64,000 nt of DNA from Rhynochetos jubatus (lineage: Eukaryota; Chordata; Aves; Eurypygiformes; Rhynochetidae): NCBI GenBank assembly GCA_027574665.1, contig CM050654.1, forward strand, positions 32,445,722 through 32,509,721, written 5' to 3'. The notes under the pieces are model-generated. The model worked only from the letters and a program-made list of their open reading frames with translations. It did not search any database and was not told the DNA's origin. Positions 23,476 through 62,549 of this stretch are shown one piece after another. A program made the position numbers and the translations under genes. Position 1 is the stretch's first letter; every line of letters begins with the position of its first letter.

Positions 23476-23722
23476 TTGTCTGGAGGGTGTGAACTAACCG
23501 TGGTGCTCCAAGACTTCACAGCGGGCCACAGCAGCGAGCTGAGCATTCAGGTGGGGCAGACGGTGGAGCTGCTGGAGCGGCCGAGTGAAAGGCCAGGCTG
23601 GTGCTTGGTCCGGACCACGGAACGGAACCCGCCACAGGAGGGTCTGGTCCCCAGCAGCGCACTCTGCATTTCCCATTCCCGCAGCAGCGTGGAGATGGAT
23701 TGCTTCTTCCCTTCAGGAAAAG
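23476..23722 (+). CDS. KALRN: KALRN exon encoding the first SH3 domain
   Basis: The exon is 247 bp: 82 codons plus one base. It follows a T14 tract (23443-23456) and acceptor GGGCAG, and ends at AAAAG|GTAGGC. Translation reads SGGCELTVVLQDF, then QVGQTVELLERPSERPGW, EGLVPSSALCIS and SSVEMDCFFPSGK, the SH3-1 domain shared by Kalirin and TRIO. SH3 landmarks are altered: ALYDY is VLQDF, only one Trp (in PGWCLV) is at the usual WW position, and the closing motif is GLVPSSAL. In this family SH3-1 follows the first DH-PH (Rac/RhoG) GEF unit and takes part in protein and intramolecular contacts; this is family knowledge. The start is at a codon boundary (TTG, Leu), not an initiation site. The spare 3' G joins AT at 62550 to make Asp. 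KALRN rather than TRIO is decided by the downstream linker exons. Confidence 0.95.
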
Positions 23723-26700
23723 GTAGGCAACAACCCAGCAGGTTTAAGACTGTTTGGGATTTCTCCTTTTGTATCATGTAAGTGCAAAGCTGCTTGGGCT
23801 GCTCTTGCAGTCGGCGTGGGTCAAAGGCTGTTTAGTCCTTAGTGGTTCTGTTACCAGATCTCTGTGAATGGGCACAGCACTAGCCTAACTCCATTTCCAT
23901 GAATCAATGTTTGTATGTGTGCGTCTTTTGCTGTGTGGCAGTCATTATTGTCTTGAGATTCTGGGTTAAAAATAAGACCTTTAAACAACAAAGGGATGGT
24001 TTTCAGTGCCTAAAACCCTAGAGGGAGCGAAGGTCATTGTGTACATACACCCAGGATGCCCCCAGTTGTGGATATGTTGTAAGTGCCACAGCGCACACTA
24101 GTGCATGATCTTTTAGTTTATCCCTGCTGCCTGTCTGTTATTGCAAAGAAGCCACCAGTGAGTACTGGTACACTCTATTCACTGGTGAACTGGAGACATT
24201 GTGTGTAGTGGCACAGTAGGATGAGGAAAGAATGCTTTACAATTAGCCTGTAACAAAACACATCCCTGGTGTTATCCTGAGACCTTGGGCTTCACCCACA
24301 GTGAATGGTGAAATATTGTTCGTCTCTGTGATGTCTGTGGCCTATTTAGTTGATGTTCTGTTCTGAGCAATGTGTGTCCCACGTATAGCGTCCGTGTAAC
24401 CAGGGACAAAAGATGGTCCAGACTGATAGACCAGAACCGGTTCAGGTCAGCAGGGCCAGAGCAGGTCCCCTCTTGGCTGTGCCCCTGCTTCTGGCCACAC
24501 ACAACGCAAAGAAGGTCCAAGGAGGAAAGGCTTCTGTCACCCCACTCCTGACTTCAAGCTCGCAGCCCGAACTGGCTTTTTAAAATTTATTTTTCCTCTC
24601 TGCATTAAGGGAAATAGAATTTGATCCGTTCTTGTTTGAGCAAGTTAAGCTTGCTGGTTTTGTTTGTTTTGAGAAAAAGCATTGAAACCAGGCTGTGGTC
24701 CGTCCTCGCTCCCACTGGGGAGGCTGGGAGGGGGACACACCCCTACAGCACGGCAGGGCCAGGGTCTGGACTCACGAGTTTCCCTTAAAGAGCCGTCTGA
24801 TCCAAACCTGGGACAGGAGAGCTCAGCTTTTCCCCTCAGATTTGATCCCCACAGCAGGTCTGTTTGGTTAGGTGCTTCCCCTCGCCAGGCTTTGTGAGAC
24901 GGAGGAGGTGAAGTCAGGGCTGGTTGTCAGCAGCTCTGTCAGCGGTGCAAACTCCAAACTCATCACGTGCTTCCTAGACCCGCTGCCCACTCTGCTCCCC
25001 GCCTCGCGCCCAGGGCCGGGCCCCGCTTCTGCTGCCACAGGAGCCTGGCCTGGTGCTCAGCTGTCCTCTGAGCAGCACTGCAGTTGCTTACATGCAAATT
25101 AAATCTGTGAATAAATGGAAGGATAGAGCTGAAAATCAGCACGGTCTGTGTAAGAGCAGCCACTGCCTGACATGACTCATAGGAAGCCAGAGACTTCTGC
25201 TGGGTGCATGGTCCAGCAGTTGGGCTTGGGTCCTCTGCTGCAGGATGCTGTGAGACACCACTCAAACCACATTCGAGTGCCCGAGGTTGAAGAGTTTCTC
25301 CTCAAAGCAAAACAAACAAATGGCAGGAGTAGGCTGTGGAAAGGGAGGCAGGAAATCCCGAGGAGGATGGAGACAGCGTGGTGCAGGGGCTGAGGGCTGG
25401 CAGGGGACATGGGTACTCTTCTTCCAGCACGATTGCGTGAGCTTCAGGGCACAATAAACCGCACCATGGGCGCAGTGCCAGGCTGCGGCTGGTGGACCAC
25501 AGTCGACTGATGCCTGGAAGCCACCCGAGCCTGTGATAGCATGCTTTGCCTGCCTGTGGAGCAGGTTAACACCCTGCAACCGCTTCCAGGTTGGAGCTGG
25601 CTCTTGCCCCATCATCTCCAAACAGGTGCAGAGTGAGTCTGGGGCCGGCTGGCTCCAACTGTGTATTCATGGCCTTTATTTCCTCTTCCCCCGGCCTTAG
25701 TTTTCTTCCCGCACATACTTGAGCTGTATCAAGGAGCCTCAGTATTAATGGAATCTCCAGGAGTGCTGCTGGAAATAATAAAAATAACCACCCATTCCAG
25801 GGGGTTGGCAAGAGTACAGCAAAACTGTGTCTAATCAGTTCTCCCTCTATTAGGAAAACAGGAAATTGTTTAAACTGAATGAACAGATGCTGAGAATGAA
25901 GAAAGAGGGGTAAGTTTAGAGTTTAAAAGGCAGTGTGCAGTAGCCACTGGAAGAGCCTGCTGGTGTCATGAGATGCTGGAGGATTTAGCATGATAAATGG
26001 CTTCTGCCTATTCAGATTCCTGTCCTTCTCTACTTCCAGTAGGTTTAGGCATGGGTTGGATTCAGAATCCCAAATTTCTTGGCTTCTAAAATTTCTGGCC
26101 TTTCTCTACAACCCAGAACAAAGGCTGGTACGTTTTATATCAACATCAAATGATGTCCCCTGTCTTTTTCTAGTATGTAAACATACACAGTTGCAGAAGA
26201 ACAGGTTAATAGCTGATTTTTTCTTGCAATTACCAAGACACATAATTCTTTGTTTTTACAAGCACTGTAATTTCAAGAACAGGAAGCATCTAGATTTAAA
26301 AATCAACATTTCTAGTAATAGAATTTGCCATCTGTGATAGAAACACACAATCTTGGCAAGTATTAAAACATAGTTACATCTGCTTAGTGGGAAAGGTGTA
26401 ATTACTGTGTTTGGTCCTATTATAAGTTATAGTGGACTATAAATGTAAATCATGTGGCTCACAGAAGCTACCTACTGTCCTTAAAATGAATGAGGAATGT
26501 AATATGTCAGCCAACACCTGAACAGATGAAGGCTTGAAAGATTTGATGGGATCACCAGAACATTTTGTAGAGCATCAATGCATGTCCTCATCAAACAAAA
26601 AAAATAAGCCTTTTTAAGCAGCATCCATGGAAAGCCACTGGAAGTACAAAACCATACTTCACAACTGAACATATGCTCTGGCTCTTCCTCACTTTTTTAT

Positions 26701-40754: not shown

Positions 40755-42089
40755 GGTTTAAATTGAAAGAGGGTAGATTTAGATTAGATATCAGGAAGAA
40801 ATTCTTCCTGGAGATGGTGGTGAGGCAGTGGAAGAGGTTGTGGAAGAGGCTGCCCAGAGAAGCTGTGGGTGCCCCATCCCTGGAAGTGTTCAAGGCCAGG
40901 CTGGATGAGGCTTGGAGCAACCTGGTCTAGTGGAGGGTGTCCCTGCCCATGGCAGGGGGGTTGGAACCGGATGATGTTTAAGGTCCCTTCCAACCCAAAC
41001 TGTGCTATGATTCTATGGTTCTAGCTGGTTTCCAGTCCACCTCTTCCTTCTCCAGCTGCGGTTTCTGCTTCCAGTGGGACATATTATCTCCCTGCTACAG
41101 GCACAAGAGCCCTGAGTGGATCCCCGAGACATTGCCTTGCATCTCCCAGATGGGCAAAGCCCCAAGTCAAAGAAAGACACAACACACAGCAAATTGGAAA
41201 CAGAGTTCAGGTTCGCTGCATTCTTATGTATTGAAAAGCACCTTGGTGCTCAAGGGCATTGGCAGGAAAATTTTCACGCTCCAGGCTTGCTGTGAGGTTG
41301 CCAGTGCTTCCAGTGAGGCTGTACTCGAAGAACAGATCCTACAGCACTGTCAGAAGCGAAGCAGGAAGGTTTCATCTTTGCAGTCGCTGTGTAGGAGTCT
41401 CTAGGGGAGGTCACTGGCACTGTCCTGGCACCAGGTGCTGGGGTCCTCTGCCAGGATGGCTCTAGGGTCTGCAGGATCCCACCTGGTAGCTCTGTGAAAC
41501 TACCCAGCACAGGCCTCCCTTCCCCCAGGAGCAGACACAGCACGCGCTGTGTGGGTAGGTGCCACCCCGCGTGGGTTTGCGAGCCCTGTGCCGAAGCTGC
41601 AGCCCTCACCTCCTGCCCACAAACGGCCCTTGGCCCCACGAGGTGTCACTGACTCCAAAGCTGTTACACAGCAAACCGAGATTCGGATCCCCAGCCTGCG
41701 GCATGGGCACCACCACCCCTACTCCGGCTGAGCTCCTGGCACGCGGGCACAAAGCACAGCACCTCTCCGCTGTTCCCTCTCAGTACGTATTTACACCTGG
41801 GAGAAGCAGCTTGTTGGGTTTGTTCTGCTTTCAATACCAGAGCGCAAAACTATGATGCTGCCGCTCTGGAATCCTGCCCGACCTCTCCTACCAGCCACCT
41901 CCAGCAAGGGTCAGGACGTCTTTGCCACCTCCAGTTTTCCATGCTTTAGGTGGGAAATCTAGCACAACAGCCTGCCACCTTCCAAAGCAAGTTGTGCTTC
42001 TGGACGTAGGGCATATCGGTCCGTGTCAGAAGGGTGAGCGTTCACCCCAGTGCTTCGGGCACAACTGGCAGCAAGCAGAGGGAGAGCGG

Positions 42090-42134
42090 TTGGGATCGCG
42101 GCACTTGGGATTGCGGCACCCGGGATCGCGACAG
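42090..42134. repeat. GC-rich minisatellite, three 15-bp units
   Basis: Units at 42090, 42105 and 42120 read TTGGGATCGCGGCAC, TTGGGATTGCGGCAC and CCGGGATCGCGACAG. It sits at the upstream shoulder of the CpG island. The CpG-bearing GATCGCG core may bind a factor, but I do not recognise the motif. Confidence 0.85.
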
Positions 42135-42208
42135 GCTGGTTGGTGTTTTCAACGAGCTGTACAAAGTTTTAGCTGTTGGATGCTTAAGCTAAGGATGGCG
42201 CTGGGAAG

Positions 42209-42221
42209 AAAAAAAAAAAAA
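42209..42221. repeat. Poly(A) tract, A13
   Basis: Homopolymer run between the minisatellite and the dense part of the CpG island. No AATAAA precedes it at the usual spacing. Confidence 0.85.
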
Positions 42222-42492
42222 GATGTGAACTTTAAAAAACACCCCACAGCAATACAAGTTTTGCCTTTTAAAGACATTGGAGGACCCCGCTCCACAGCGT
42301 ATCGGAGCTTCACCAACTTCCTCCGGGCAGTTTTTCTTTCTCGGATGCCGCCCACACGGCCGCAGCCTCAGCGAGGATCCAGCGGTTTCCCGCACCCCCC
42401 CTCCCCGAAAACTCGTTTTCCTTCCAGAGGGCGGCGGCTGGCCGGCTGGGGGTGCGGGCGTTCCGCGGCCGCGCAGGGCGCTCCGCCCGCTG

Positions 42493-42552
42493 CCGCCCCG
42501 TTGCATAAGGCGGTGCAGTGGCCGCCGGCCGCGCTCCGCCCCTTTCCGCCCC
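42493..42552 (-). promoter_or_regulatory. Cluster of three GC boxes (SP/KLF sites)
   Basis: CCGCCCC occurs at 42493-42499, 42536-42542 and 42546-42552. All three are in the same orientation (GGGGCGG on the minus strand), just upstream of the alternative first exon. Confidence 0.55.
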
Positions 42553-42720
42553 GCGGAGGTGCTCGTCGGGTACGGCGGGGACAACGGGAGCCGCGGCCGG
42601 GAGCGGCTCGGCCGCTTATCACGGCTGTTTTTACATCTTTTTTTTTTTCTGGCTTTAAGGCTTTTTTTTTTTGAAATTGTGGTTTGTTGTTTTTCCCAAG
42701 CGGGCCGGTGGCTCCTTGCC

Positions 42721-42744
42721 ATGAGCAGCCCGAAGGCAGCATGA
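42721..42744 (+). CDS. Upstream ORF of 7 codons overlapping the short-form start
   Basis: ATG at 42721 opens a frame reading M-S-S-P-K-A-A and stops at TGA 42742-42744. The stop overlaps the main start codon as ATGA (42741-42744). The upstream ATG has G at -3 and the main ATG has A at -3, so both contexts are acceptable. If the transcript starts upstream of 42721, ribosomes meet this short frame first and must leak past it or reinitiate, which would dampen synthesis of the short Kalirin. The frame is seen directly; translation is inference. Confidence 0.45.
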   Translation: MSSPKAA

Positions 42745-42822
42745 AAGCGGGCAGGCGCGGCTATCCCGCCCGCTCCGGTGTAGGATGGCTCTTGGCGAAG
42801 TGCTGCTGCTGCTCCTGCAAAG
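42741..42822 (+). CDS. KALRN: Alternative first coding exon of KALRN (Duet/TRAD, delta-Kalirin) with cysteine-rich leader
   Basis: ATG at 42741 opens 27 codons plus one base, ending at AAAG|GTCGGT. The peptide begins MKAGRRGYPARSG, continues VGWLLAKCCCCSCK, and splices in phase 1 to exon 62550 (Asp-Ala-Tyr-Ser-Val). From memory, human KALRN isoform Duet starts MKGGDRAY and contains GWLFAKCCCC before the same DAYSVSS junction. The match in position, phase and motif makes this the orthologous exon, one codon shorter. It replaces the spectrin-repeat, first GEF and first SH3 parts, giving a protein with the second DH-PH (RhoA-type), second SH3, Ig/Fn3 and kinase regions. The CCCCSC cluster beside a Lys looks like a palmitoylation site for membrane anchoring (inference). 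In-frame codons upstream of 42741 lack an ATG nearby. The donor is weak at +3 and +4. Confidence 0.85.
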
Positions 42823-42840
42823 GTCGGTGGGGTCCGGGGG

Positions 42841-42858
42841 TGTGTGTGTGTGTGTGTG
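42841..42858. repeat. (TG)9 microsatellite just after the alternative first exon
   Basis: Nine TG units begin 18 bp after the donor at 42822|42823, within the CpG island. Such tracts can adopt Z-DNA and UG repeats can bind CELF/TDP-43-type splicing factors; either role here is inference. Confidence 0.9.
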
Positions 42859-43158
42859 GAGAGGCCCCTCGGGGGACCGGCAGCCCAGCGGTGCCCTCGG
42901 CGGGGCAGCCTCCCCGCGCCGCTGTGCCCGCTGTGCCCCGGGGGCGAGCGGAGGGAAGGGGAAGGGGCAGGTGGAGGCGGAGGGCAGCTGGGCTCGGCAC
43001 CGCGGGTGCGGCCGGGGGCTCCCTCGGCCGCGGGCATCGGGAGGGAGAGGGCTCAAGTTGACAGGATGCGTTTTATCGTTGCTGGTAGGAAACACCCTGG
43101 GACTGTAAGGTCAATAGGGCGGGGAGAAATATTTGCTTAAATGAGATTTCTTTCTTTC

Positions 43159-43174
43159 TTTTTTTTTTTTTTTT
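43159..43174. repeat. Poly(T) tract
   Basis: Run of about 16 T following TTTCTTTC, just beyond the CpG island. Simple sequence only. Confidence 0.8.
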
Positions 43175-44110
43175 CCCTTTCTAGCCTTCCTTGGGCTTGG
43201 ATAGGAACAAAATGCTTTGAGAACATCTGTTTCTCACAGTTCACAAATCTCTGAATGGTGATGTGGGAAGGTCTGGGATAGCTGGCTGAGCTGAAACACA
43301 GAGATGTGGGAAAGCCACAGCAGCTAGAGCGCCTTGTAAAAATAAAATAAAAGTCTGGCTTTTACAAGGAACAGTGCGGCTCGGACGCGCTGACTGACGA
43401 TTTCCCAGCCTGCAGCCTTCATGCCGTGCTCTGGCTCTTGAACTTGTTCTGGATTATGTGAGTTTTTTGAAGATGTATGTGTGTGGTATTTCAGTGTTTC
43501 CTGTTCTCTGAATGGCCAAGCAGAAATGTCCCAAACAAAACTTGCCTTTTGTTTTGGGTCCTTTTTGTTAAAAAAAAAACAAAAAAAACCCCAAAAAAAA
43601 CAAACAACCACTAACTCTAAAGCTTTTCAGTGCAGTTTTTTGGTAATCGTGGAACCCATCCCCAGATAAAGATGACTGAGGACGGGTGAGCTTACAGATT
43701 TTGCAGTGCGGGAGCCCTGTCTCCCTGGTTATTGAGCTAGACTCACGCCTGTGTGGTGACAGCAGCAAACCAGAACTAGTTGGTGATGGAGTTTGCCAGG
43801 ATTTCATAAGACGTTGGTCTCTCGTAGCCTGAGGAGAACACATTACTTCGTGCCAGAGAAGTGAACTGTGAGGTCGATCCACAAAACCCCCGCTTTTTTG
43901 CAGGATTTAAGAAGGAACGTGTAATTTGGTTGTAGGGGTAGGGCTGCCAACAGGCAGGTTGTGGTGCTAAATTCCTGTGAAAACCAAGTCTCTAGGACAG
44001 CCCGTGCTTCAGTGTGTTGGCCCATGCCGCTGGTGGGAGCAGGCTTCAAGCTCTCTGACCTGGCTCTGGTCTTTAAAATGTAGATTCTAACGGATTAAAA
44101 TCTTCCTGCT

Positions 44111-44133
44111 CTTCCCCCTCTGGAAGGGGGAAG
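44111..44133. repeat. Perfect 8-bp-stem hairpin
   Basis: CTTCCCCC and GGGGGAAG flank the 7-nt loop TCTGGAA. It is a simple inverted repeat in intron. No T tract or other sign makes it a terminator or small-RNA precursor. Confidence 0.6.
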
Positions 44134-46050
44134 GGGAGACAGCTGACTCTTCTCTCTCCCTTTGAAATGTTAACTGTGTTTGCAGTTGTAGTTTATCGGC
44201 TTAGTAACAGAAGTTGTTTTGTGGTACTGATTGCTTGACTTTTTTCTTGTCCTTGGTAGTACACTTTGGGGGAAAAGTTGTAAAAGGTCACCTGTTACAC
44301 TGTGTTTATTAAAGAAAACCGGAGGTAGTCAGACAGTAGAAATACTCCCTGAGTATAAGGAGGTACCCAACCTGACATTTGATGAGGTACTTGGATGCCC
44401 CAGACTGCAGCATCAGTGTGCTGCTGTTGATGCTTTGATGTGGCAAGCAGATCTTCGAAGCTCTAACTTCATGTATTCTGCAGTGTTAGTGATCATCCTT
44501 GCTTCTGGGACACACACTCAGTCCCAGGGCTTCTCACTGATGTGACTTGCAGTAGAAGATGTGCTATAGGTGACTGTATTTAAGGTGGACATGAAGCACC
44601 GTGGAGCTGTTCTCATGGCTGCCCCGTAAATGATCTTCCCTTTGCCTTTTTCCTGGTGACACACGCCTGATGTATCTTGCTCTTTTGCAACAACTGAGTA
44701 GGTTTTGTTGTGCCAATAAGAACCGTCCAGTGAGAGGAATTGAAAAGATGAGCCTGCAGTCTGTGCTCAAGCAGAGGTTATGTTGGTACAAGCTGTGTCG
44801 ATGCTTTTCGTGTCGTGGAGCTTGGAAGCGATGCGGATGCTTGATCTCTTAAATAGCAACAGTAATGCAGAGCTGAAAACATCCAAACCCTAGGTCCCTA
44901 GTGTGGCATGAAATATGTACGTTTCGTGTAACTGGGCATTTCTCGGAAGGATTTTTGACAGCTAACGCAAACCACTCTTTGGCATCAGTCTTATCCTGTC
45001 TTTTGCAGCAGTGGAGACCCTGATACTGCTTTTTTGCTTGTTTCGCTTGATGAGTTTCTGATCTTGTCAGCTTTGCCCACGTACAAATCTATTGGGATCC
45101 GTCCAGAGAAAGCAACTGACACTTAGTAGCATTTGCAGTTTTGCTCTGACCCTGGTAGTCCCCTGCGTGAACTAAATAAGGACTACTTGTCTGTTCTGAA
45201 GTATGGGGAGATATGAATCCTAATATAGGAGTGCCACAGAGCAAGGGTCTGTCACTTGCTTTCGGCCATAAAAAGGGGTAGTTAAGAGCTGTAGACTTGC
45301 ACAGCCTTCAGGCCAATAGCCTTAATCAGCCAAGAGTGGGCAAGCAAGGCTTTTTGCAGTATCTCCTAAATGCAGAAATGCAAGGTGACCTAGTGTAATG
45401 GGATACGTTTCAGTGCTGCAAAACTGGCTCCAAAAGCAGCCTGATAAGGGGTTCAAATTCTGATGGTCTTCTGGTAACTAGAAAGTAATCGAACTCTTCT
45501 TAGATATCAGCCCAGGGTTTGCAACTGAATATACCTTGTTGTCTTTTAACATGGAGTCCATCTCCTCAGTTTTCTGTGTGGTTCAGATGAGAGGCTCCTT
45601 TAAAAGGGTTGTGATGAGGGAAAGGGAAGAAGTTGGAAGGATTCCTGCTTTGTGAAAGTCTTTCCTAAAGCAAATGGTCAGCTTCATGCCTTGAATGTGC
45701 CAAGGTCAAAACTTCGTTGCCTTTAAACACGGAGCGAAGTCCAGTGGGTGAGTGCCATTACCTTCAGCGCAGAGTTCAGAAGCTCAGCAGTGGGTGCATG
45801 GAGCTTGGGTCAGGTGGAGACTGAAGTCAGGCTCTGATGTATGGGGAGCTGTAAAGAAGAGTCAGTGACTGAGATTTAACCTAGAAGTTAAATTCTGTGT
45901 GCTGTATTATATCCAGGGTCTTACCTAGAGGACCTTTTTTTGCCGTAGTTCAGCTCATTAGGTTCTAACCCAACCTGGAGCACGCTGAGGTCTCATTGCC
46001 CTAAGGGGCACCAGGAGGGTGGAAAGTACTAACAAGGTGTAGGAAATGCC

Positions 46051-46067
46051 TTTTTTTTTTTTTTTTT
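46051..46067. repeat. Poly(T) tract, T17, followed by CTTAG
   Basis: It resembles a 3' splice site (T17-CTTAG), but no coding exon of Kalirin type follows. Confidence 0.8.
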
Positions 46068-46570
46068 CTTAGAGCACAAGGAGAGAGACGTTCTGATCTG
46101 TGGACTTGAGAAGCTAGCTATGGGTACATCAGGTACAGCCCAAAAAGGATCTGTGGTTAAAAGTAGCCTGTTGTCAGCATAACTTTACAGTGCAACACCT
46201 TACACCCCATTCCAAGCCATATGGTGTGGCTGTAATCAGCTGTGAATATAAAACACTTCTTATTTGAGGGTAGCCAGAAACAGGGAAGATGGATTTAAAT
46301 GGATGCGCTGTATCAACTTCGATAAAGAACATGTCCCTCTGCCTCCTTGAACAGTTGCTCTGCTGAGCAGGCTGCTGGTCATATCCAAACTTTTCACTTC
46401 AGAACAAAAGAAACTTAAAGTGAATGTCAAACCTTTCATCTCAGTGTGTTAAAAATGAAGGATTGAGTGGGTTTGTGTCTGTGCTGAGCTCCTGGTAAAG
46501 CCCTTACTTAAATTTCCTGTCCCTCCAGCTTCTTCTGTATATCTCCTACAGTTTTGCTATTCCTTCTGCA

Positions 46571-46588
46571 TTTTTTTTTTTTTTTTTT
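46571..46588. repeat. Poly(T) tract, T18
   Basis: Homopolymer inside a pyrimidine-rich stretch (about 46500-46630). No coding sequence follows. Confidence 0.85.
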
Positions 46589-49500
46589 GCTGTCCTCTTT
46601 TCTTTCCTTTTCCGCTTCTTGCTATCCTTCCCTGAGTCTTTTGATTGGTTACTGGCTCAGCCTGGTGAACCTCTTTGCTGTAAGATTAACAAAATAAGCT
46701 TCTCTTGACAGAGCGATGGTGACTAATGTGCAGTGAAGGGAGTTCAGCCAGCCACCTTGTACATCTTTGCTAGCTGGTCAGAAACAGAGCCTTAACTGGA
46801 AGTTGGGCAAACCAGCATCATTACAAGGGCTGTCAACAGCACGTTAATAAAAGTTATTTCTTCATTAGGTAAGAAGTGAGATCTGATGGTGCTTTTTATA
46901 GAAGGTGCTGATGCTGTGTTACAGCGAGCTGCAGAGCTTTGCTAAGGAAACTGGTACCTTTGTGCCGAGTGGTAGCAAGAGAGTGATCTGCAAGAATATA
47001 TTCAAGCCCATAACATTTCCTAATTTGAACACATTTTATTAAGTGTTTCGGGCTGAGCCATGGTTACACTGTGTAAAGCATGATGGAATGCATGGCCGAA
47101 GCTGTTCCGTCAAAATTGAGGCAGAGGAGAAAACAATAGTAAAAATAAAGTTGTCAGCCAAAGCTTGCTTAGTTTCCTGGTCCTTCCTGTATGACAAATA
47201 TGAGGAAACTGTTACCGTCCCCAAATACACTCCTTCGGTGAAGTCCGTCTGTTGTTCGCTAGTTGCATCTCGGTGAAGTCAGGAGGATCAAGTGCCCTGG
47301 TCTGCTGTGGGCAGTCTCTCTCTCTCATGCCAGAGTTGTGCTCGGCTCTTTCTCCTGGCTGGTTCACAAGCAAATGGCTGTGGTGAGGTTTGAGAGAGTT
47401 GTTGTTTTCTTCCAGTTCTATTAAAAGAAAATTGGTAAGTCCATGGCAGGAGCATCTCTTCTAAGTCCTGTGTTTTCCCTCCTCCGCAGGCTGAGTCAGG
47501 AGTCGGAGTGGGTCATGGCAGATAGTTATTGGAAGGGACAAAAGAGTTGATGAAAATGCTGCCCAGTTGAACAAGTAGGATTAATGTGACAGGGTGAATA
47601 CGGGTAGCAAAAAACCGGCTCTTTCTGTTAGTGCGGAGATGTGCTCTAGCACACCTGCTCTACACCCTCCTGACAGATAGCCCTGAATTGAGCGTGTCCC
47701 AGAAGCGTGCCCGATAGTCACCGTGCCAGTCTTTTGGAGTAAATACAGACTCACTGTCCTGAACCTGTTAGTGTTAGGTGTTGTTAAATCCTACCTGTTG
47801 GCAGGAGGGTTTTTGGAGGGTAGAAACCTTGTTCACGGATACAGCAGTTCAAGTTTTCCGTGGGTCTGTGTTACTGCAAAGTACAAAGTGTCCAAGGGCA
47901 CAGGAGGTTTGAGGTTTTTCGGAGGGCTGGTTGCCGCACGTGACACTGCTCACCGCTCTCATCTTCCGCCAGCCACTTTCTGTAAATCTTATGTTTATCG
48001 TATCACTGCCAGTGTTCAGGAGGCTTTAACAGCTTTCTCTTGCTTCCCAAGATCCAAGTAATACTGGCATTACTTTATTATTTTTTGAACCTTGCGCACT
48101 CCGCTAGGCAACTCTGACTCTCCCAACACAAGGTAGCCCCTCGTCCTCCGGCTTTGTGTCTCCCTTTCGCGACTGATCTTGTTGCCTTATCTTTTGTGAT
48201 GTGGTTATATACGGGATGTGACAAGAGTTGTACAGAAAACAAACTTTAAGATCTTAATTCTTATGTGTAACGTAGATAACGAGTTCAGCTGGCTTACAAA
48301 GATCATCTTCCAGTTACTAGTCTGGGGGTGAATGCGGGGTGGGGATCTTTATTATTCAGATTGCTGCATTGTTTTCAACTTTCATAAATTCATCCAGTTC
48401 TCAAGAAACATGGGGTTTGCTTTTATGCTGGCAAAGCGCCTAAGCTTCCCATTCGCTCCAAGAAGCTTGTAAGAATTCATAAGGCTTTATTCGTCTTGTC
48501 AAAAGCCTGAAGAAGGGAGACTTTATTCTGAGGGAAAGATTACAGATAATGGTGAAAAATATAGCTTGGGTAATACCCTGTTCACTGCAAAGAACATGGG
48601 CCAACTAAACATGCTGCTTTCCTATAAAATAAGTGCCAGATAGATGTATTATTTAGTAATTCAATGCACAGATGCTGAAATACAAATCTACTCATGTTGA
48701 AGTGAAACAAAAAGGGCAGTTCACACAACGCCTGAAGGTTTGTTTGTTTTTTCTTCCAAACTGTTATGTTTCATCATACACCTTGTTAAAACTTGTGTAT
48801 GTATTAGGAAAACTAATGTATCGTTTTAAGGTTAAAAAAAACAAACCTCAATGTTTCAGTCTAAAAATAGTATTGAGATACTTCTCCAACACACCAGAAC
48901 ACTGTAACATCTCAGTGCAATCCTCTCTTAACAGGCTGTATGGAAACGTTTTCATCTTTGGCAAAAGTTGCAATTTCTTTTCAAAAGAGAAGATTGGTTG
49001 GGCAGTTAGTGATTACAGGAGGGATCTATAAATCTGGTTTTCAGTCCATAAGGAAATCCAGTTCTCCGTCAGTTTAGCCACTGCATATCATTTGCCGTTG
49101 CAGAACAGTTCGATTGCTAATATTGCATCATGCAACTCAATGTCACGTAAAGGGGCTTTTTGAAACAACTACAGAAGTGCATCTGGCTGTTTTCTTGAAA
49201 AAAAGATCTGTGTATCATAAGTAGGACTTCAGCACGTGTCAAGAATTATTAGAAAGTACCTAATGAGATATGCTCAAAACCATCTCCCTTGGCTAGTGTT
49301 CTTTCCCATTAGAAAACCACAAACCAAAAATTAGCCTGTTTGCTTTTAGTTAATAATGTTTGATGTGGCTGATTATTCTGAAACGCAAACCGGTCTTTGA
49401 ATTAAAGGTAGTTAGTGCATCCCGTTGGGTCTCCGGTCGAGTTTGATGTGCCTCCCAATCTGTCGGCCTCTGTCCTAGACCAGGACATCAGACATTTCAC

Positions 49501-50808
49501 CTGGGCTCTTTCAGATAATTAGGTCAAAATATGAAATTTTCACAGTGAAGTCCTGATGAGATGTGAAATAGAACCTGCAAACTGAATTACAGCAGTTAAT
49601 AATAGAACCCACGGGGGTTTCTTCTTTTTGGTGGGGAGCGAGCCATTATATACACTTTGGTTTACGTACTTGTCTTTTGCTTCTCTCTAAGGCGGAATGC
49701 GTAACATCACGTTGCAGAAAGCCCAGTATAGCTGTGGTGGGTTTCTTACTCCTTTGCCTCCCAGCACTTCCCAATCCTTACACGTGCTCCTCTACTGTAC
49801 AGGAACTTGTACAGTCACTGCTCAGTACTTTTGAAAAATGGAAAAAATACGTCTCCCGTTTTGTGTGTTGCCACATGAGGACTTAGTAGTTGCTCTTCTG
49901 TTGCCCCTGTTGCGGGCACGTGGGGGTTCCGTGTGTTACAGCCGTTGCTAGTCCTGGTACAGCTCAGCGACTTTCAAATCTTGGATCCCTGCGGAATTAA
50001 CTTCCAGGCTGTGCAAGGCTGTGAAGTTGCACAAAGGGGTGAGTCTGGGGAGCCAAACCTGCTGGGAATCAATTAGCAAATATGATCCGGAGGAACCAGC
50101 AAGTGGTTTCTGGTGAAGGTTTTGTATCTTTTGTATTGGGCGGTTGTAAATCAAACACGGAAATTTCACGTTGCTGGATATGGGAAAGCACAAGTACAGT
50201 CTGTCTGTCAGCTTTGAGCAAAGATCCCGTGTTCATTAGCACAAGACAGCACTGAAGTAAACATTTAGGGAAGAGATGGACTGTGATAAGAAAGGATTGG
50301 AGGGGTCTCCACTGTTATGTTTTCCAGGCGTTTTTCCATGTTCAGATTGCACATGGAGCAAGCAGCTCTGAGCACAAAAGGAGAGCTGGGAGTGGCACAT
50401 CCCCAGCTACAGCTAAATCCACTGAGGACGCTTCTGCATGCAGTCCAGGCCAGCAGTTACAGCTAGAGTATGTGCCCTGATGTGCTGTGTTGGTTTTTTT
50501 CCTCCTCCCTTCCTAATGCACATGTAGCTTTGGTGAACAGAGGTTTATTACATCCCCAAGACACGCAGTACAGTCTTAACCTATCTGCAAGCACGTTACA
50601 GTTCAGCCAGCGCTCTGAAACTTTCCTGAGGTCACGTAGGAAATTGGTGGCAGAATGACCATCAGATAGTCAGCAGTTACAGCTTCAAGATTTATATCTA
50701 CCAATTGATTTCAGCCTTTTGATAGGCCTGCGTGCCCTAGGAAGCGCATCACACACGTACCCCAGTTCGTCTCGTTCAGCAGTGCCAGTTAACTGTGGCT
50801 GGAGCAAT

Positions 50809-50826
50809 CCCCGCTGCGCGGCGGGG
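50809..50826. repeat. GC-rich inverted repeat
   Basis: CCCCGC and GCGGGG flank TGCGCG, an isolated CpG-dense patch in AT-rich intron. A 17-mer with one difference occurs at 20824-20840. Confidence 0.55.
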
Positions 50827-53800
50827 AGCGGCAGGATTGCGTTAGGGGGGAGGGCAGCATCGAGGTGGTGGTGAGGCTGAGAGCACGGACCAGCATGTGT
50901 GTTCCTTCTCATCGGCTGGGGTTCGCTGCGGTCCTGGATCAGATTTGCCCACGTTGAGCACCCCTGACGAACGAGGCCCCAGCTGTCTGCTGCCGCAGTG
51001 GCATGTGCCAAGGCAGGCTATGAGAAGTGTTGCACAACCCAGTATAATTTAACCACATGCTGAATAAATACACTTTTGAGAACTCTTTTGGAGAGATGTT
51101 GCCTAATTAATCCTGCAGGGGGTATAATATGTATATTTTTGAAATCCGGTTTTAGCATCATGCAATTAGCTTTCATGGCCTAAGGATTCTGATTTAAGAC
51201 ATTCTTTAGTTACTAATGGTAATCTGTTTTAATTAGAAATGCAAATGTATTTTAGATCCAAATGTATGTGAGTGGTACAGTGTAAAGAGATGATTCACAG
51301 CTAATACCACTGGAGTGCCTCGAGTCTGGTATTCTTTGTACCTTCTGTAGTTTGAACCCTGAGGATCAACACGATATTCAAACATCGCTCTCAGCTGAAG
51401 CATGTGGAGGCTGAATAGACTTTGTTAGGAAATGGAATAAGTATTAATCAACAAGGATCCTTTCTAGGGCAGCAGAAGGAAAATCATAGCTTTAGGCAAG
51501 AAGGAGGCAAATGCTTTGAATAGTACAGTAGTAACTTCAGCTTCGCAGTAGCAGAGCACCGCTCCTGCCAGGACACAGGTGCTGAGCAGCCGCCAGCATC
51601 TTGGTTGACTTCGTCTTAGTATCAGAGAAAGTACTCAGGTTTGAACATCCCGGGCTGCTCAGGCTGGGCTGTAGCTGTTCAGAGCTGTGCTGCCGTAAAA
51701 TCTGATCTGGCAGCGTGTCTAAGAAAAGCCTCAAGCAAGGCAAGCTCCGAACAAACATATGAAGGCTAGCACTCGCTGAATATGCACAGCAGTCATTTGT
51801 CCTGGAGATACTAAATTATCAGGCAGGTGGATGTCTGTGATCAGACATCGCACACTGCAGTAAGAGATCACACAAATTTGACACAGTCCTTCCAGAATCA
51901 AAGAGCCTCTGCTGCTAGGCCAGTCCAGCCCTAGCGCTTGTGTTCAAATAAGTGTTTCTTTTCCCTAATTACTCGGAAAGATGGGGGCAAAAGAAAGCAA
52001 CTACTCAGCACTAGTGAAGATGGCTTTTGTATTGATAATTGCTTATTAGACATATTGCTTGGTAGACCCTTTTTGCAGCTATTTGTGATGAGGCGCAGTG
52101 ATGCAGCTGGGAACGAAGCAGTGCAGTTTAAGCAGTGCACCTCTCCCCATCTCTGCTAAGCTGGATGTAGAATTCTTTTCCGTGAGGAGGCTGCTGGTAA
52201 GAAGCAATGGTGTAGGCACCGTAAAGGCTGTGGGATGCTCCATGTTGCCCTCCAGAAGTCAAAATCCGAGAGTTTCTCGGAACTAGCCTTATTGGGAAGA
52301 CTGGTGGCTGGGTCAAGGCACTTGCAGAGCCTCAGACGGCTGAGACCTCGGCAGGGTGCTGCAGAGAGCTCTCCTGTTCCCATGCAGCAGATGCTCCCTG
52401 AGACTTCAAGTTCCTGTCCCATCTTTCTTGCTGACGCAGATAGAGTGTAGTGATTTCATCACCTGAAATTTGATAAACTTGTTGACTGGCACCACGGGGA
52501 ACGTTCCTCACAGAACTGCTCCCTGCCCTGGAGAGCTGTCAAACGAAAACCCAAGACGTAGATCGCGTGAGCCTGTTATATGGATCGGCAAGTGATGTTC
52601 TGATTTTCCTACTTAAGCTGAGTGAATTAAAGCTTCCCACAAGTCTCACTGATAGTCTTGAGTGTGCAGTTAAAAGTCTCTGAGCTGCTTAGCCGTTTCC
52701 CTGTGCCGTGTTCAAAGAGCAAAACATCACCAGCACCAGCAGTTCTTATCTGTGTGTTTTATTTCCAAACCGCTGTTTGCATTTACTTCATTCATTACTT
52801 TTAATTCATCCCAACCAGTACCTTTGCTGTGAGCTTGTATTTTCCGCTCGTATTTCTGGAGGATGAGGGCGTGGAGAAAGCTGCTTTGGGTACCAGCCCT
52901 GGAGGCTCCGGCTGCAGTGTGTCTGTCGTCAAACACCCCAACCTCGTTGTTCTTGGTGGTTACGTGGTGTCCGCTCTTGCCCTGCACCACTTGCAACTTA
53001 TTCTTATTCCGTTCTTTTCTTTTCAGGGGCTGTCAGAGCCTGAATAATTTAAGAGTGAACAAATGAGAGACGTTCATGGAGGACTCTCTTCTTACCTAGG
53101 CACAATTTGACAAGCATGTAGATTGCCTTGGGTTTCCACTGCACCTACCACAACTTTACTAAGAGAAAAGCCCCCTTTCCTAGACATCTGTGTCCCTCTT
53201 GCTTAGTAAAGTTATTCAAGATCAGCGCCTTTGGAATTGGTTGGTAAATGGACAAAGACTTTCTCTTTGCCCGGAGCTCCTGACAGCCTCCAAGTACCAA
53301 AGAGAACTCCACAACACTAGAAAGCAAGAGACAGCTGCTGAATGTTGGAAGCTACTGCATTTGGCAAAAGAAGCTGACGCTAAGATGCACACAGTTGTGT
53401 TTGTTTGTTCTGCTTGTTTTCTGTGCTTTCTGAGCCCTGTGTGTGCCTGGAAAGTTTAATGACCAATTCCTTCTTTCTCAACATGCAGTTATTCTTCCTA
53501 TCCCAAAAAGCTTTGGGTTCTGTTCTTGCTTTTTTTTATTTTCCCAATTCCAATTTATACTGTCACCGATACCCTTCTGTTGTTTCCATGAGGAGCTGTT
53601 TGGGTACGTAGCCACAGTTTCCTTTGAGGTAGGGAGACATAAATACGATACCCAAACATTGACCTCCTGCCTCCTCTCCCCTCATTCAGCAGAGTGGTCC
53701 ACCTTGTCATAGAGGTGGCTGGCTTCAAGCGTAAGGCAGAGTTGACCTTAGCAATGATGTCATTTGACTGAGAAATCACTTCAGAATTCTTACAGCAGCT

Positions 53801-54384
53801 CAATTTGGGAGCTGCTGAATGAAGCTGACCCTTGACACTTCGCAGAAGAATAAGGCTTGTGTTGTACTAACAGCTGCTTGGAAACCATGTGTAATAAAGT
53901 TTGGTTTTGTGCCCACCACCAGGATGAAAGATGGTATTCGCCGACTCTGGTACCCTTACGCTCCCAGCAGAGCAAAACTGCTTAGATCAAAGTTTAAAAG
54001 TCTGCTTCTATGTGGGTGTCTAAGCATTTCACAGTTCCTTATGCTAAAAGTAACAGTGTACTTGCAAAGGCCAGCAAATGCTGCTCTTCTTGTTCAGCTT
54101 CAAACATGACATTTCCCCCCTCGTCATCCCATGTAGGTTTCCATAAAGGTTCAGGGTTAACACTTTTTTTTTATGGAACATGCACAAGTCTCCTATGAAA
54201 ATATATCAAGGGGGATTTTTGCTTTGTGTTTGGGGCTTTGTTCTTTTTGCTGCTAGCGGCACTTATTCTGGAAACTTCAGGGTCGGGGATTACTTATTTT
54301 TGTCAGAGAACGAGGACAGTGTAAATACAAAATGTAAAGTAGAACTTAGAGAAGCGCTTCAACAAGTTGTTTGACTAAATTGAA

Positions 54385-54418
54385 ATAAATGTTGATTTGT
54401 TCAAAAAAAAAAAAAAAA
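54385..54418 (+). other. AATAAA followed by A15: possible end of an old retrocopy or cryptic poly(A) site
   Basis: AATAAA at 54385-54390 is followed 13 bases later by a genomic A15 (54404-54418), the arrangement of a reverse-transcribed polyadenylated mRNA. The open frame just upstream (stop near 54374) encodes nothing I recognise, and I see no convincing target-site duplication. It may equally be chance. Confidence 0.25.
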
Positions 54419-57400
54419 GCATGCCCTTTCTGGATCTTGTTAGTCTTGACTTTTTATTTCCTTTCTTTGCTAAAGCAAAATGCATGTCTCTTCACTTCAG
54501 AAATCTGCTCTCCCCGCTGTGAGGCATTACGGGAAGGCTGCTCCAACGTACGCTCCCAGCAGATGCGTTGGACTTGCTCTCGCTGTGCCCTGGGCTGGTC
54601 TGGGATGTGTGCTTGGCACAAACCTGAGGCAAGAGAATGGGTGAATCAAATCGAGTGCGTAGAAATACTGCATCTGGCCTCAAACTCAGCTGTGTGGAGC
54701 AACTGCTCTTTTTCTGAGCTTTTCCACACCCTTTTGTTCAGTAAAAACCTGTTCTAAAAGATTGTTGCTCTATTGGGGAGATAAGCGAGGTTCCCTTGAA
54801 GGACTCAAGGCAGGCCAATAACGTACCTCTCGTAGTATTTTGGGATTGGAGCTGGCTAGGAGTATCTTGCTTACTAACGGGGTTGGTGGATTCACTCTGT
54901 GGCTGTTTGTTCTCTTGTTATTCCTGTCATGAACTCACAGCGGCTTATGTGAGGGGTCAGATGGGGCCCTGGAGCAGGATGAGTTTGTCAGGCTGATAAA
55001 TGGAGAGAAGGCGGCTCAAACCTCCCACCGGAGAAGTCGTAGACACGCATCACAGTGTTACATGAAAATACATTTCTGAGCGGGACACCCAGAGAACAGG
55101 ACTGGAGATGTTTCGGCTGCTGTAAAAGCGCTCGGTGCCGTGGGGTTGGGTTGCACGCTTTCCTGAGGGTCCCTTTCAGAGGCGCAAGGACATGCGCTGC
55201 CCTCGTGGGCAGCAGCTCCTGGGTTAAATGCTTGTCTGGAGGAAACGAGACCCAGCCCTGTATCCATCGGAGGACTCGTCTTCCTCTTTTCCCAGTGCCA
55301 TCCCTACAGTCACCTCTGACAGTAGCTTTAGGTCCCCGTGAAGCAGCAGATAGGACAGGGATGGCTCCTGTAGCTGCTGCTCTCACCAGGCACTCTTGGA
55401 CAGTAACGAAGTCATGGTTTATTTCCGTGGGCTCTCTCTCCGTGTCTTCCCCTTGTGCCGTTTCTCTCCCTGGAGGCTGAGCTCACTCATTCAGCACGCT
55501 CTCAGGATTTCAGTAACTCTTCTTGCGGGGTCTCTCGAGACCGCGCGCCTCTCTGCTGTTTCTCCAGGCTTTTGGTTTTATCTCCCTCTTTGAAACTTTC
55601 CCAGAACTGCAGTGACTTTTCTCTGACCTCCGGGAACTGGAGCTCTTGAGCCCTGACACTCCGACTGGCACAACCAAGACCTGGAGACTACTTTGGGATG
55701 TCAGCTTTCCCAGCGCATGCTGGATGAAAGCCGCATCTGAGCAACACCAGCTAAAAATAAAAGCTATTCAACTGAAGCTAATGGCGGGTTGCCATGAGTT
55801 ATTGCTCATTAAAGTGAATTGTCAGATGCTTAACTTCAGCTAATCATTTCCTGCTGCGAGATGGGCCTGGTACGAAACATACTCAGATGTGGGAAGGGGA
55901 TTCACAGTAACTAAATTTAGTGAAGGGTGTAATTTCCTCGGACTCCCTCTGTAGTTAATGGAAAGAGAGAGGCTCCTACGGGGTGTGATTCCCGCTCTGC
56001 ATCCCCTTAGGCAGCAGCGTGCACGGCCCCTTGACTGCCGAGAGCTGCTGCCTGCTGCAAAACCGAGCTGCTCCGGGTGATGGTGTTTGCCCACCCCAGC
56101 TAGGTGAGTGCTTGTTTCCCTCAGTTTAGGTTTCTACCTGGAAGTAATGGTCAGGAAGGTGAATATTAAAACCAACAAATAGGTGACCATTTCCCAAAGG
56201 CAAAAACCCTTATTCAAAATCCCCCAGGAGCATCCTCTGCTTTTCAGTGTAGCTATTGGAAACTCTGCAGATCATCCTTTATCTCAAGGCAGCTGCTCTT
56301 TCCCATTTCCAAGAAATATCAGCTATTCAATAAAGAAATGCTGCGTTGGGAATGTTGTGTGATTAATTTAGTATAGTCATTTTTTTTCCCTTGTTCTTGG
56401 AAGTTAGTCTTGTTTGCTCGTTTGGTTGTGAAACAGAAAGTAAAATTTTGAGTTTTTACATTACAGTGATTGGAAACTCTGTCAAGTACATCTGCTTTTA
56501 GCAGTGTAGGCTACTTTGTCTTTTGGACTAGAAACTTTTGCATAAAATATTTAACTCCATACCACTCTTCTTGAGTTTGGACAGAAGTCTGTTCAGCCAC
56601 GTAAATGGAACTGTGAGAATCCTGCCAGATTGATTTGTGCCTTTTGATGTTACTTCCAGCTTAAAGCTTCAAATGATATGACAAGACACAAACAGAAAAT
56701 CCAGTTGAACCTTCTCAATTCTTCTCATTTACAGGAGATTATAAAGCTAGGGAGAACATTTGAACCTTGGAGCAAAATTTGCATTTACATTTCAGTGGTA
56801 TAGTTTGAACGTGTCTTTACCCTCTGGTGTGAAACCGGGTCCTACGTGGTCTTATCTCATTTTTCCCTGGAGCCGAAGCACGGGGCAGGTCCGTGGTTGG
56901 GCATGTGCAGAGTAGCTGAGCAGAGCTGGGGGACGTGGGCGACTCCAGGGCAAGTTTTGCAATTCCATTGCGCAAGTTTAAGGTACTTCTAATCTGAAGG
57001 GCTTCGCAAGCCAGTTGTCCTTTGTCTTTGTCTGACATGGGCACTGAAAATTTCCTTGTGTTCACTTACGTTCTCCATTCCAGCCTTTTTCGGAGGCAGT
57101 GCCTGAGGAGAAAGTTTATCTGTTGACATTAAGAGTTGTCAGATTCATTATTTGCATTGTTACGAACCAGTACTTTTCACTTGAGGAATAGATGTGAAGT
57201 GACTTTGTATTATCCAAATGTTTTACCTCCCAAATTTTTGCAAATCCATGCCAGGTTTTACAGGCAGAATAGGCTCTAACACTAAAATTGGGATCAGTAC
57301 TGTCATCTGCCTAGGCCACAAAGTTTTGTAACCCTGACTTGTGCCAATAAAAATGTTTCACTGAGTGTGTTTTGGATATTTCATACAAAAGCACAGAAGA

Positions 57401-60400
57401 GACCAAAGAAGCAGTTTTCATACCTCATTCTGCCATCTTTGCATCCGTTGAGTAGAGCTTTAGCCTTGAAGCCCTCAAGAAGATCCAAGACGGCTTTCAC
57501 AGCAGCGTTTCCCAGGGCAGAGTATAAAGCCTCAAGGGACGCAGAGCTGTGAACTGAAGCCTGCAGCCTCTAGGGTGAAGGAGATGCTCTTGGAAAGGGC
57601 AGGGGAGGGTGCATTTTGATGTTTGTTTAGTGTGAAATATTAACATCAAGGTTTTGTTTGTGCATAGGATGTGTCTAGATGACTCCTGCTTTCCAAGATT
57701 TGCTGGTACAGAGATTCCTGTTTTTCAAGAAATACTAGCTCGAGTAAAGACTGAGTTAGTCTTTCACCCACATCTGATTCAATTCCATCTTTGTCAGAAA
57801 TGTTATTTTACAGGAATCACTAAATATGGAAAATGGGCTCTGTCAGGCACAGCGGAGCTGATTTATGTGCTCATGGGTCAGATTGTCATTATTGGCTTTC
57901 ATTCATGAGTGGAATTATTTCTGCAAAAAAAATTGTTTATTTAAATACACATACTAATAGGATTGCAGACTTCCCATTCTGGCTCATCTTCCTCGACTTC
58001 TGTGGAAAAATCCTTTTCTCTCAGGCTGTTTTTCTGGGGTGAGAAAGGGAGCCATACGTAAATCTGAAGAAGATACACCCCTCCTCACCAACAGCAAGGT
58101 TGTGCCCTGCCATAGTCACCTGTCTTCACAGCTACGTTGTGTACTAACTGCTGGTTAAGGAAGTGCATTTCCGTCCTATCATACGTGGTCTGTGGTTAGT
58201 ATGGATCAAGAAGAGAAGCCTGATGATTTCTACTGAGTTGCTCTGAGAAGCCTTTGCCTTTCCCCGTTAGAGATCTGAGTTCCTGCAGAGCAGTCCGGTG
58301 CTGCATGAGCCTGATCAGACAGACCTCCCCTCCCATGAGTGTCTGGGGAACAGGGAGGTAAAAATAAAATGTCTTGTATTTATGTTCCAACAGTAATTCC
58401 TACTGACTCAAATGGGAATACACCTGTGCCTCTGAAACAGGTCTATGAGATTTTCATTTTTCCTTTTACCCAAGGTTGCACAGAACTGGAACTTTGGGTT
58501 TTTCAAGTAAAAGAGCTGTGCTTTTATAGACGTCTGTTCATTTGAGCAACAACAAATCTTTCCTGCCTCCGGTGCAGCAAAAGCTCTGAATGTTAAAGCT
58601 CTTCAGTCTGGCTGCGTGTCTGTTACAGTCCTATTGCCAGAAGTTTCTTGGAGGTTTGCTTAGGGGTGTTTTGGAAACCATCATTTCTTCTGTCTGAATG
58701 AATGGTTTGGCCAGGAAATCAATGTAGCCGCACTAGTCTGCTGACCTCCCTACACCCGTTTCGCTTCACCAGATACCTTTTTTTAGACACGTGTGTCCAA
58801 GCGTGTGGTGGCAGGGCGACTGCTGGCTGTAGCTCTCCGCTGAGCCCTGACGTTGCTGCAGACCCGCTGCAGCGTGAGGGCACCCACGGCTTTGCTGTGC
58901 TTTGCAGGCAGCGGTGGCTGCCCGAGTCACCATGTGATGTGCCGCTGCGTCTTTTCCAAAGTGCTCTCTGGTTTTTCTTAAGCGAACTGTGTTTCCGAAC
59001 AGCTCTGCCAGTACAGTTTGCAAAGCACGTATGTGCTAGAGCTCTGCAAGAAGAGCACAGTAGCACAGCCTTCTCTTCCGCTCGATCCACCCTGTGCCTG
59101 GATCTCAGGCTGGTATCGAGTGTCGTGATTAATGTGTTTGTAGCCGTGTGTGCTGCGGAAGCAGTGCAGCTCTCACAGGCACGCTTAGGAGGCTGTCTCC
59201 AAAGTCCTTCCTGGCAGATTTTTTGTGTTGCATGTTTCTGTCTCTCATTTTGTGAGCTCTGCTCTTCCTTGAGCTCCAGTCCTGCCTCTGCGACCACGGC
59301 AAGGTGACCTGCTTTATGTGCAAAGGAAGGCGTTCTCAGCAAATGGCAAGGGTCATTTGCTCACAAATGTGTTCATATTCGCAGTTCCTTTAAAAAAGAA
59401 AAGGAAAAAGGTGATGAATATTGTGTGTGGACTCCCACTGTGGTTTTTGGACAGTTCAGCAATGGTGGGAAGTGGGATGATGAGATGGGATTGCTTTGTG
59501 CGTGTGTAGGGTGCTGGGTAGAGCAAACTCGCCCCACCTCGAGGGGCTCTCTGGGTGGCTGGGGAGCAGGGAGTTTTATACCAGACTTTCTCTTCCACCT
59601 CCCTGCCTATCCTCCAGCCAGCAGAGACTACATTACCATGTAGAGGCAAGGTAAGGCCACGTTTCCACTCTTGGGCTGCATGGGTCAAGTGAAGGCTAGG
59701 CTGTGTCCCAGGTGCCTTCCAGTGGTCAGCCGGGGCACTTCAGCAGACAAGGAGAAAGAAGGAGACTTCATACCTGCCAGGGTTGTGTGCGGCATGGCAT
59801 GACCGAGATTTAGTCACCCCTCAGTAAATAGCCTTTTTCATCACCAAAGGCATGAACTGGAGCAGGGAAAATCCAGAACCTCGTTCAAGAGGGATTGTTG
59901 CACAGTGTAACACACCTCCCTCTGGAAACCTTTGGGTTGGCTTTCATCATGACCTGTGGCTCTGGAGGCCTGATGTTTGGTCTGCGGGGGTTTCTTGGCT
60001 CTAGGTTAAGCTTCGGACAAAATTCCTGCAGGTGGGCAGGGTGGGCTGTGGGCCAGATCGGGACTTGGGCTCGCCCCACCAGCTGCCTTCCGGGATGATG
60101 GGGCACACTGACTGACCGTCGCTTCCCTCGGACAGCCTCGAGTAAAGAGTCGGTGGTGAGAGGTGCTGTGTATCTGTTCGTGGTGGCCCTGCTCGTAAAA
60201 CCAGGAGCAATTCCTGGTGGGAAGGGAGGCCCCTGCCTCCCTTCGGGGTTCTGAGTTTGGCCCTGCCTTGAGCCCACCACGTGGAAGTTGGACTGTGCGT
60301 CTCAATAACAGATCCTTGAGGTGGATGGGGCTGTCCCAGGCTCCATTTAGACTCCTGTCAGCTCCCTTCCCTTACTAAAAGTTACACTGGCAAAGTGCCG

Positions 60401-61569
60401 TCGACTGGAGGGTGGGGGTTTAGACTGTGTTACTTCCAAGCTGCAGTAAAAACCTCTCTGTACATTAATCGACCGAGATGTGGGAAGATCAGCTGGTTCT
60501 TGGTTCTCCTCAACCCCCCCGAGCCCAGTCCCCAGCAAAGGCAGGGAGCCCGTGATACGGCTGCTTGCCCCAAATCATTCCTGAGTGGCAGCCTCCACAG
60601 AGCGATTGCTTCCAGCATTTCTCCTCCTGTGACCGCAGCCCTGCTCCCTGTGCACCAGTAATTCCCCAAGTTAATCCTCCTGCTGCGGCAGTGGGAGCGC
60701 AGGCACCCGAGACCACCTGATAAACTCCTAGAGCATCACATGGACCCTGCGGGAGGAGGCTGCCTAACGCCTATTGAGTGGAAGATAAGCTGGCCACTGA
60801 CAAATATTATCTTGCGTTTGTTGATTTAATTAACGCCACTTCATGTGCATGAAATAACATCAGCGGGCACTGGCTAAACCCAGGCCTTTTTGAGTTAAGA
60901 CTGCTACTTTGCCCTTATGGAGGAACGTCAGGAAAACCCCAGCAGTTCCACCTGGGATCCGTCCTGCTCCCAGCCCCTCTCACACTTCCTCCCGTCATCA
61001 GAAGACAGATGATTTGGATTTTCTTCCTGTCTGGGAAATGAACTTTGACTTCCTCTAGCTTCTTACAATTATTTCCGTATGTTCTAAAAACCTAACTTTT
61101 GACCTCAGGTATGTAATAAATTATTGGTTCAACTTCTGACTGAGGCTGCCTATGGTTATAAAATGTTATATTATATTATACTGTCATGGTCTGAAGACCA
61201 TGGATGCTGGCAGACAAGGCAGACTGCAATCTCTGCTCGGTGCGTAGCTGGCTGTGAGCAGCAGCTCTGCATGCAGGTAGCAGGAACTGACTTCGAAACC
61301 GATATAGGTAATGATTCTCTGGGACAGCAGCTCTCCCTCAGCATGGGTACTACACAGTACCTCTGATGATATTTGTTGCTGAACTGAGCATATATGGATG
61401 CACCAGGCTCTCTTCATGTGTTGTAACTTATATTTTTGTTTCCTGCTGGGATGGATCAAAGATTCAGAGGTAACCATCTAAAAATATTTAATAACACCAG
61501 CTGGCTGCTTTCTGATGTACAGTCTGAGATGTATCTTACAGGAGTGTCATGATTTCTGAATTCTGTTTT

Positions 61570-61586
61570 AAAAAAAAAAAAAAAAA
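61570..61586. repeat. Poly(A) tract, A17
   Basis: Homopolymer about 960 bp before the linker exon. No polyadenylation signal precedes it at the usual distance. Confidence 0.85.
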
Positions 61587-62525: not shown

Positions 62526-62549
62526 CTCACCTGCCTTGTTTTCTTCCAG
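62526..62549 (+). promoter_or_regulatory. KALRN: 3' splice site of the shared linker exon
   Basis: The stretch TCTCACCTGCCTTGTTTTCTTCCAG is pyrimidine-rich and ends in CAG. It must accept two donors: the SH3 exon (23722) for the long form and the cysteine-leader exon (42822) for the short form. Both deliver phase 1. Confidence 0.8.

Follow-up and report, generated by a model that had tools for sequence, protein, structure and literature searches.

What is a dense CpG island doing deep inside a long intron of an avian KALRN gene, and which product, if any, would start there? We addressed this in a window of 64,000 nucleotides from Rhynochetos jubatus (C7:32445722-32509721) that lies inside KALRN, together with searches of the whole 1.33-Gb assembly (148 contigs). 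Positions below are those of the window unless a contig is named. The preliminary description of this DNA had read the island as an internal promoter with an alternative first exon for a short kalirin, labelled both Duet and delta-Kalirin.

The position of the island relative to the common exons of the gene was given by three features:

23476-23722, plus strand: KALRN SH3-1 exon (start inferred from an acceptor AG; phase-1 donor G/GTAGGC)
62550-62833, plus strand: common downstream linker exon, DAYSVSSNDNGG...SADE (acceptor ttttcttccag, donor GAG/GTGTGT)
63692-63796, plus strand: the common exon that follows, KSKKGWGEDEPDEESHTPLPPPMKIFDNDPTQDEM (splice sites assigned by eye)

The SH3-1 exon, the last common exon 5' of the island, matched Pfam SH3_1 (4.6e-9), and its best match among solved structures was PDB 1u3o (E 3e-39), entitled 'Huntingtin-associated protein-interacting protein', which we take to be a name of kalirin, with Trio (7sj4) behind at 8.2e-30; the TRIO paralogue forms a separate locus on contig C1. 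The two downstream exons encode the SH3-RhoGEF linker, and from gene order the first of them would be the equivalent of mouse exon 35. Relative to the window, KALRN GEF1 (DH1-PH1) is encoded further 5' and GEF2 (DH2-PH2) further 3' (query: an assumed human DH2-PH2 sequence), which is the order expected of a Duet-type promoter. The intron between the SH3-1 and linker exons (23722 to 62550) measures 38,827 bp, and the candidate first exon sits within it, as a Duet first exon should. Read-through of the SH3-1 donor (23723-23781) gives a short in-frame tail, ...KTVWDFSFCIM, followed by a stop, which may be a kalirin-8-like end produced by intron retention.

This exon order separates the two labels. 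A delta-Kalirin start would likewise use an internal KALRN promoter, and the wording of the preliminary description is the one point in its favour; the delta promoter, however, lies far upstream, in intron 10/11, and the proteins made from it are missing no more than Sec14 and spectrin repeats one to four, retaining five spectrin repeats and GEF1 (PMC3048553, PMC3324156), whereas the candidate exon lies 3' of both GEF1 and SH3-1, not in an intron upstream of GEF1. The delta label was thus wrong, being refuted by position, and we give it practically no credence. The Duet label fits: the mouse Duet promoter is located in the corresponding intron (PMC3541206), and mammalian KALRN Duet (Kal Duet9 / Duet12) shares with the bird locus that intron, the downstream exon, a phase-1 junction and a GEF2 lying 3'. 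Since GEF1 and SH3-1 are both encoded 5' of the candidate exon and GEF2 3' of it, the product would lack GEF1 and SH3-1, as had been proposed; the spectrin-repeat exons are placed 5' as well, on the basis of published gene order. As mouse Kalrn has six major promoters (PMC3541206), calling this the 'second promoter' was loose wording.

Two overlapping features describe the island itself:

41851-43450, no strand assigned: CpG island, the putative Duet promoter region (sliding 500-bp scan; densest at about 42100-43050)
42300-42740, plus strand: putative core promoter with 5' UTR (GC-box hexamers, six in all; Inr-like YYANWYY at 42631)

At its peak (42301-42800) the island reached 56 CpG per 500 bp with an observed/expected ratio (o/e) of about 1.05, compared to window medians of 7 CpG and o/e 0.29 per 500 bp, and GC content in the island was as high as 0.68, so that the single strong island reported for the ~39-kb intron is indeed there. 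Under the limits applied (500-bp windows, GC>=0.5, o/e>=0.6), which are lenient, three weaker stretches also appeared, two intronic and one over the 62550 exon (22-25 CpG per 500 bp, o/e 0.62-0.65). When the intron was scanned in 100-bp steps, the highest o/e outside the island was 0.67, at a point with 17 CpG. The island is thus of promoter type, and it covers the Duet-like first exon. The six GC boxes in 42300-42740 compare with a mean of 1.0 in shuffles, none of 2000 of which had as many (mononucleotide shuffles, in which CpG content is not kept). Scanned for motifs, 42200-42760 contained a single Inr-like site and lacked TATAWA. In mouse, the Duet amplicon is 122 nt long (PMC3541206); if it maps as expected, the mouse 5' UTR would extend at least ~76 nt before the ATG, that is, to near 42665 here.

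Within the island, two open reading frames overlap at their ends:

42721-42744, plus strand: upstream ORF MSSPKAA, 7 codons (from the ORF listing), its TGA sharing bases with the ATG of the leader (ATGA)
42741-42822, plus strand: candidate first coding exon of Duet, with the 27-codon leader MKAGRRGYPARSGVGWLLAKCCCCSCK and one further base (donor AAG/GTCGGT, phase 1)

The leader ATG at 42741 has an in-frame stop upstream at 42672, and the donor GT stands at 42823-42824. When 42741-42822 is joined to 62550-62833 the frame is kept (...CSCK-DAYSVSSND...), and it is likewise kept when the SH3-1 exon, ending at 23722, is joined to 62550; the phase-1 donor is therefore compatible with the common acceptor, bearing out the 27-codon, phase-matched leader that had been noted. 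The donor itself is moderate: it scores 5.9 bits, compared to 8.6 and 8.5 for two KALRN donors nearby, and among 2355 intronic GTs 3.9% do as well. The joined leader-linker peptide matched Pfam PF16609 SH3-RhoG_link (4.1e-21) over residues 26-125 of 157, and in a PDB search its sole match was Trio (7sj4), over the same residues 26-125, with the leader part unmatched. A second upstream ATG, at 42345, opens a frame that ends at 42674; the two ATGs 5' of the leader could hamper its translation, and the ATGA overlap could allow termination-reinitiation.

Could such a leader be an accident of a CpG island that is used as an enhancer or by a lncRNA? Its cysteine string is coded by a (TGC)4 run, TGCTGCTGCTGC, a short simple repeat that occurs nowhere else on the window's plus strand and that might produce the string by chance. 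The moderate donor points the same way, and frames of this general kind are common: between KALRN GEF1 and DH2 we counted 88 plus-strand candidates running from an ATG to a phase-1 donor of at least 4 bits. One of the 88, namely 42741-42822, contains a leader-type Cys cluster (at least 4 Cys in 6 residues).

The likeness to mammalian Duet tells against an accident. The human Duet N-terminal leader, assumed here to be 28 residues long and to include TRGPSLGW and GWLFAKCCCC, was compared by tblastn with 134 kb of sequence; it matched at the leader with an E of 4e-8 and 14/24 residues identical (58%), the next best hit being at 0.018. The bird leader and the assumed human one have M-K-x-G...GWLxAKCCCC in common and align without gaps up to the Cys block, the difference in length (27 residues in the bird vs 28 in the assumed human leader) falling after CCCC. 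Because the Cys string is a (TGC)4 repeat, we removed the Cys block before a further comparison; 10/20 residues were still identical to the assumed human leader, and 0/20,000 shuffles did as well, which upholds the likeness first put forward. Against the assumed sequence the 20 residues before the Cys block scored 52; the window contains 52,272 stop-free 20-mers over its six frames, and no other of them reached 30. The letters of the assumed leader had no match in a literature text search. The mouse primer Duet-rev (PMC3541206), when reverse-complemented, encodes RGPSLG in one of its three frames, in agreement with the assumed TRGPSLGW, and so provides a partial outside check. The similarity to the mammalian Duet N-terminus, measured against an assumed human sequence, thus survives removal of the repeat and argues against a chance ORF, as do the intron and downstream exon that correspond to those of mouse Duet (PMC3541206) with a fitting phase, and the lack of any Rfam family at gathering score in the window. 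We accordingly regard a chance ORF as very improbable.

Position, phase, island and leader agree, and the locus very probably represents, on the avian (sauropsid) side, the orthologue of the promoter and first exon of Duet in mammalian KALRN, in line with the Duet reading of the preliminary description. It would then be an ordinary conserved extra promoter of a type already known from people and mice, and not a new one; among the matches listed from the open-licence literature, as far as their excerpts go, we found no paper on a bird Duet. The adjective 'ancient' is supported for this genome and mammals only, and with an assumed full mammalian leader. Human DUET has several start sites and full-length transcripts have been detected; in skeletal muscle and frontal lobe, a large part of the signal from shared exons comes from DUET transcripts (PMC11630257). 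In human neuroblastoma lines the Duet exon was H3K4me3-marked in all lines tested, and in the same lines the Duet 5' exons contributed little and Duet RT-PCR was negative (PMC8017594); the mark by itself is therefore no proof of expression.

From the sequence anatomy, the phase, the order of SH3-1, GEF1 and GEF2 and the likeness to the assumed human leader, we infer transcription and splicing of the following kind. Initiation would take place at a TATA-less CpG-island promoter at ~42300-42680, and the first exon, with its 82 nt of coding sequence, would be spliced from 42822 to 62550 across 19,727 bp. The predicted short kalirin would begin with a 27-residue Cys-rich leader, continue into the linker and the RhoA-type GEF2 (DH2-PH2), and lack Sec14, the spectrin repeats, GEF1 and SH3-1. 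Duet9 would then consist of leader, linker and GEF2, and Duet12 would add Ig/FnIII/kinase.

Short GEF2-containing products also occur elsewhere in this gene family, as Trio-Duet and the GEF2-only isoforms of UNC-73, and a Trio 'Duet' isoform exists in mammals (rat: PMC5132261). In the TRIO gene of this assembly, by contrast, the corresponding intron (on C1, from the SH3-1 exon match at 79495426-79495653 to the exon match at 79528880) gave a different picture: none of 53 ATG-to-phase-1-donor candidates was a Cys-rich exon, and the sole stretch within the CpG limits, 79495101-79495651, lay at the SH3-1 exon itself. With 0/53 candidates and no separate CpG island, an internal TRIO leader of the KALRN type was rejected for this genome. 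Elsewhere in the TRIO region, ~32 kb 5' of the first DH1 exon match, C1:79442251-79442901 is CpG-rich (28 CpG per 500 bp, o/e 0.89) and is possibly an internal TRIO promoter.

A genome-wide search with the codon pattern L-x-A-K-C-[CG]-C-C returned five matches, one of them KALRN; an exact 20-base pattern with guessed codons matched nowhere in the genome. The other four were rejected as paralogous leaders, having a GC content of 0.33-0.37 and 2-5 CpG per 600 bp; two had a stop inside the motif, and the remaining two had an in-frame upstream ATG and no CpG island. Collections of prokaryote and virus contigs gave 129 and 16 pattern matches, respectively, with no relative among them, as is expected of collections of that origin.

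What might the leader do? It carries five Cys in six residues near its N-terminus (CCCCSC), and the cluster is presumably present in the human Duet leader too. N-terminal Cys clusters are typical of S-acylated N-termini, which speaks for a lipid anchor. Cysteines are likewise clustered close to the N-terminus of p63RhoGEF-580 (ARHGEF25), also a RhoA exchange factor of GEF2 type, though the product of a separate gene; the sequence assumed for it has an AKC-x-CC core. Palmitoylation of its N-terminal cysteines keeps this paralogue at the membrane, and its gene is believed to derive from a split with Trio or Kalirin (PMC5105084); Galpha-q activates Kalrn GEF2 (PMC3541206). By analogy, the CCCCSC cluster of Duet would most likely be S-palmitoylated and would place GEF2 at the plasma membrane, open to activation by Galpha-q as in p63RhoGEF, and we consider it rather probable that the cluster is a palmitoylation membrane anchor of this kind.

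The analogy appears to be one of function. With the Cys block included, the likeness of the leader to the assumed p63RhoGEF sequence was nominally unusual (132/5000 shuffles as good for the bird leader, 25/5000 for the human one), and without it the likeness was not significant (3318/20,000 and 1468/20,000, respectively). We therefore do not regard the leader as a demonstrated homologue of the N-terminus of p63RhoGEF, the likeness resting on the Cys block. This result leaves room for an orthologous Duet promoter whose cysteines are not a membrane anchor, Duet differing from longer kalirins solely by the loss of N-terminal domains, and published localizations lean the same way: human Duet has been placed on cytoskeletal elements associated with actin (PMC3324156), and for rat Trio-Duet enrichment in a cytosolic fraction is reported (PMC5132261). 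Against it stand the Cys cluster itself, its presence in the assumed human leader and the palmitoylated precedent of p63RhoGEF-580, and we hold a Duet without an anchor to be a possible, if not the favoured, outcome. No statement that Duet is a palmitoylated counterpart of p63RhoGEF was found among the matches listed from the open-licence literature, as far as their excerpts go.

The palmitoylated reading gains a further aspect from the state of ARHGEF25 in this assembly, where a query with an assumed human p63RhoGEF sequence (E<=0.01) detected no further close copy. Its 18 matches fell on C7 (KALRN, seven), C1 (TRIO, seven), C16 (two, 34-35%), C2 (one) and C14 (one). DCTN2, which we take to be the human neighbour of ARHGEF25, gave two matches on C36 (C36:2546844), and the ARHGEF25 region is thus at least partly assembled. 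ARHGEF25 may be missing from the genome, lie in a gap or have been missed; the species comparison quoted in PMC5105084 includes no bird. On the boldest reading, the Duet exon would be a palmitoylation module that makes a membrane-anchored, Galpha-q-driven RhoA GEF, in effect a p63RhoGEF obtained by promoter choice, and the only such anchored subfamily member in birds without ARHGEF25, a combination that we consider unlikely.

Taken together, these data suggest that mammals and this bird have the Duet promoter and its Cys-rich leader in common; provided that the human leader assumed here is correct, both therefore go back at least to the ancestor of amniotes. They are worth annotating in birds, and they raise the question whether Duet, as a counterpart of p63RhoGEF, is palmitoylated too; if ARHGEF25 has truly been lost, Duet could be the sole member of the subfamily anchored by palmitoylation in such birds.
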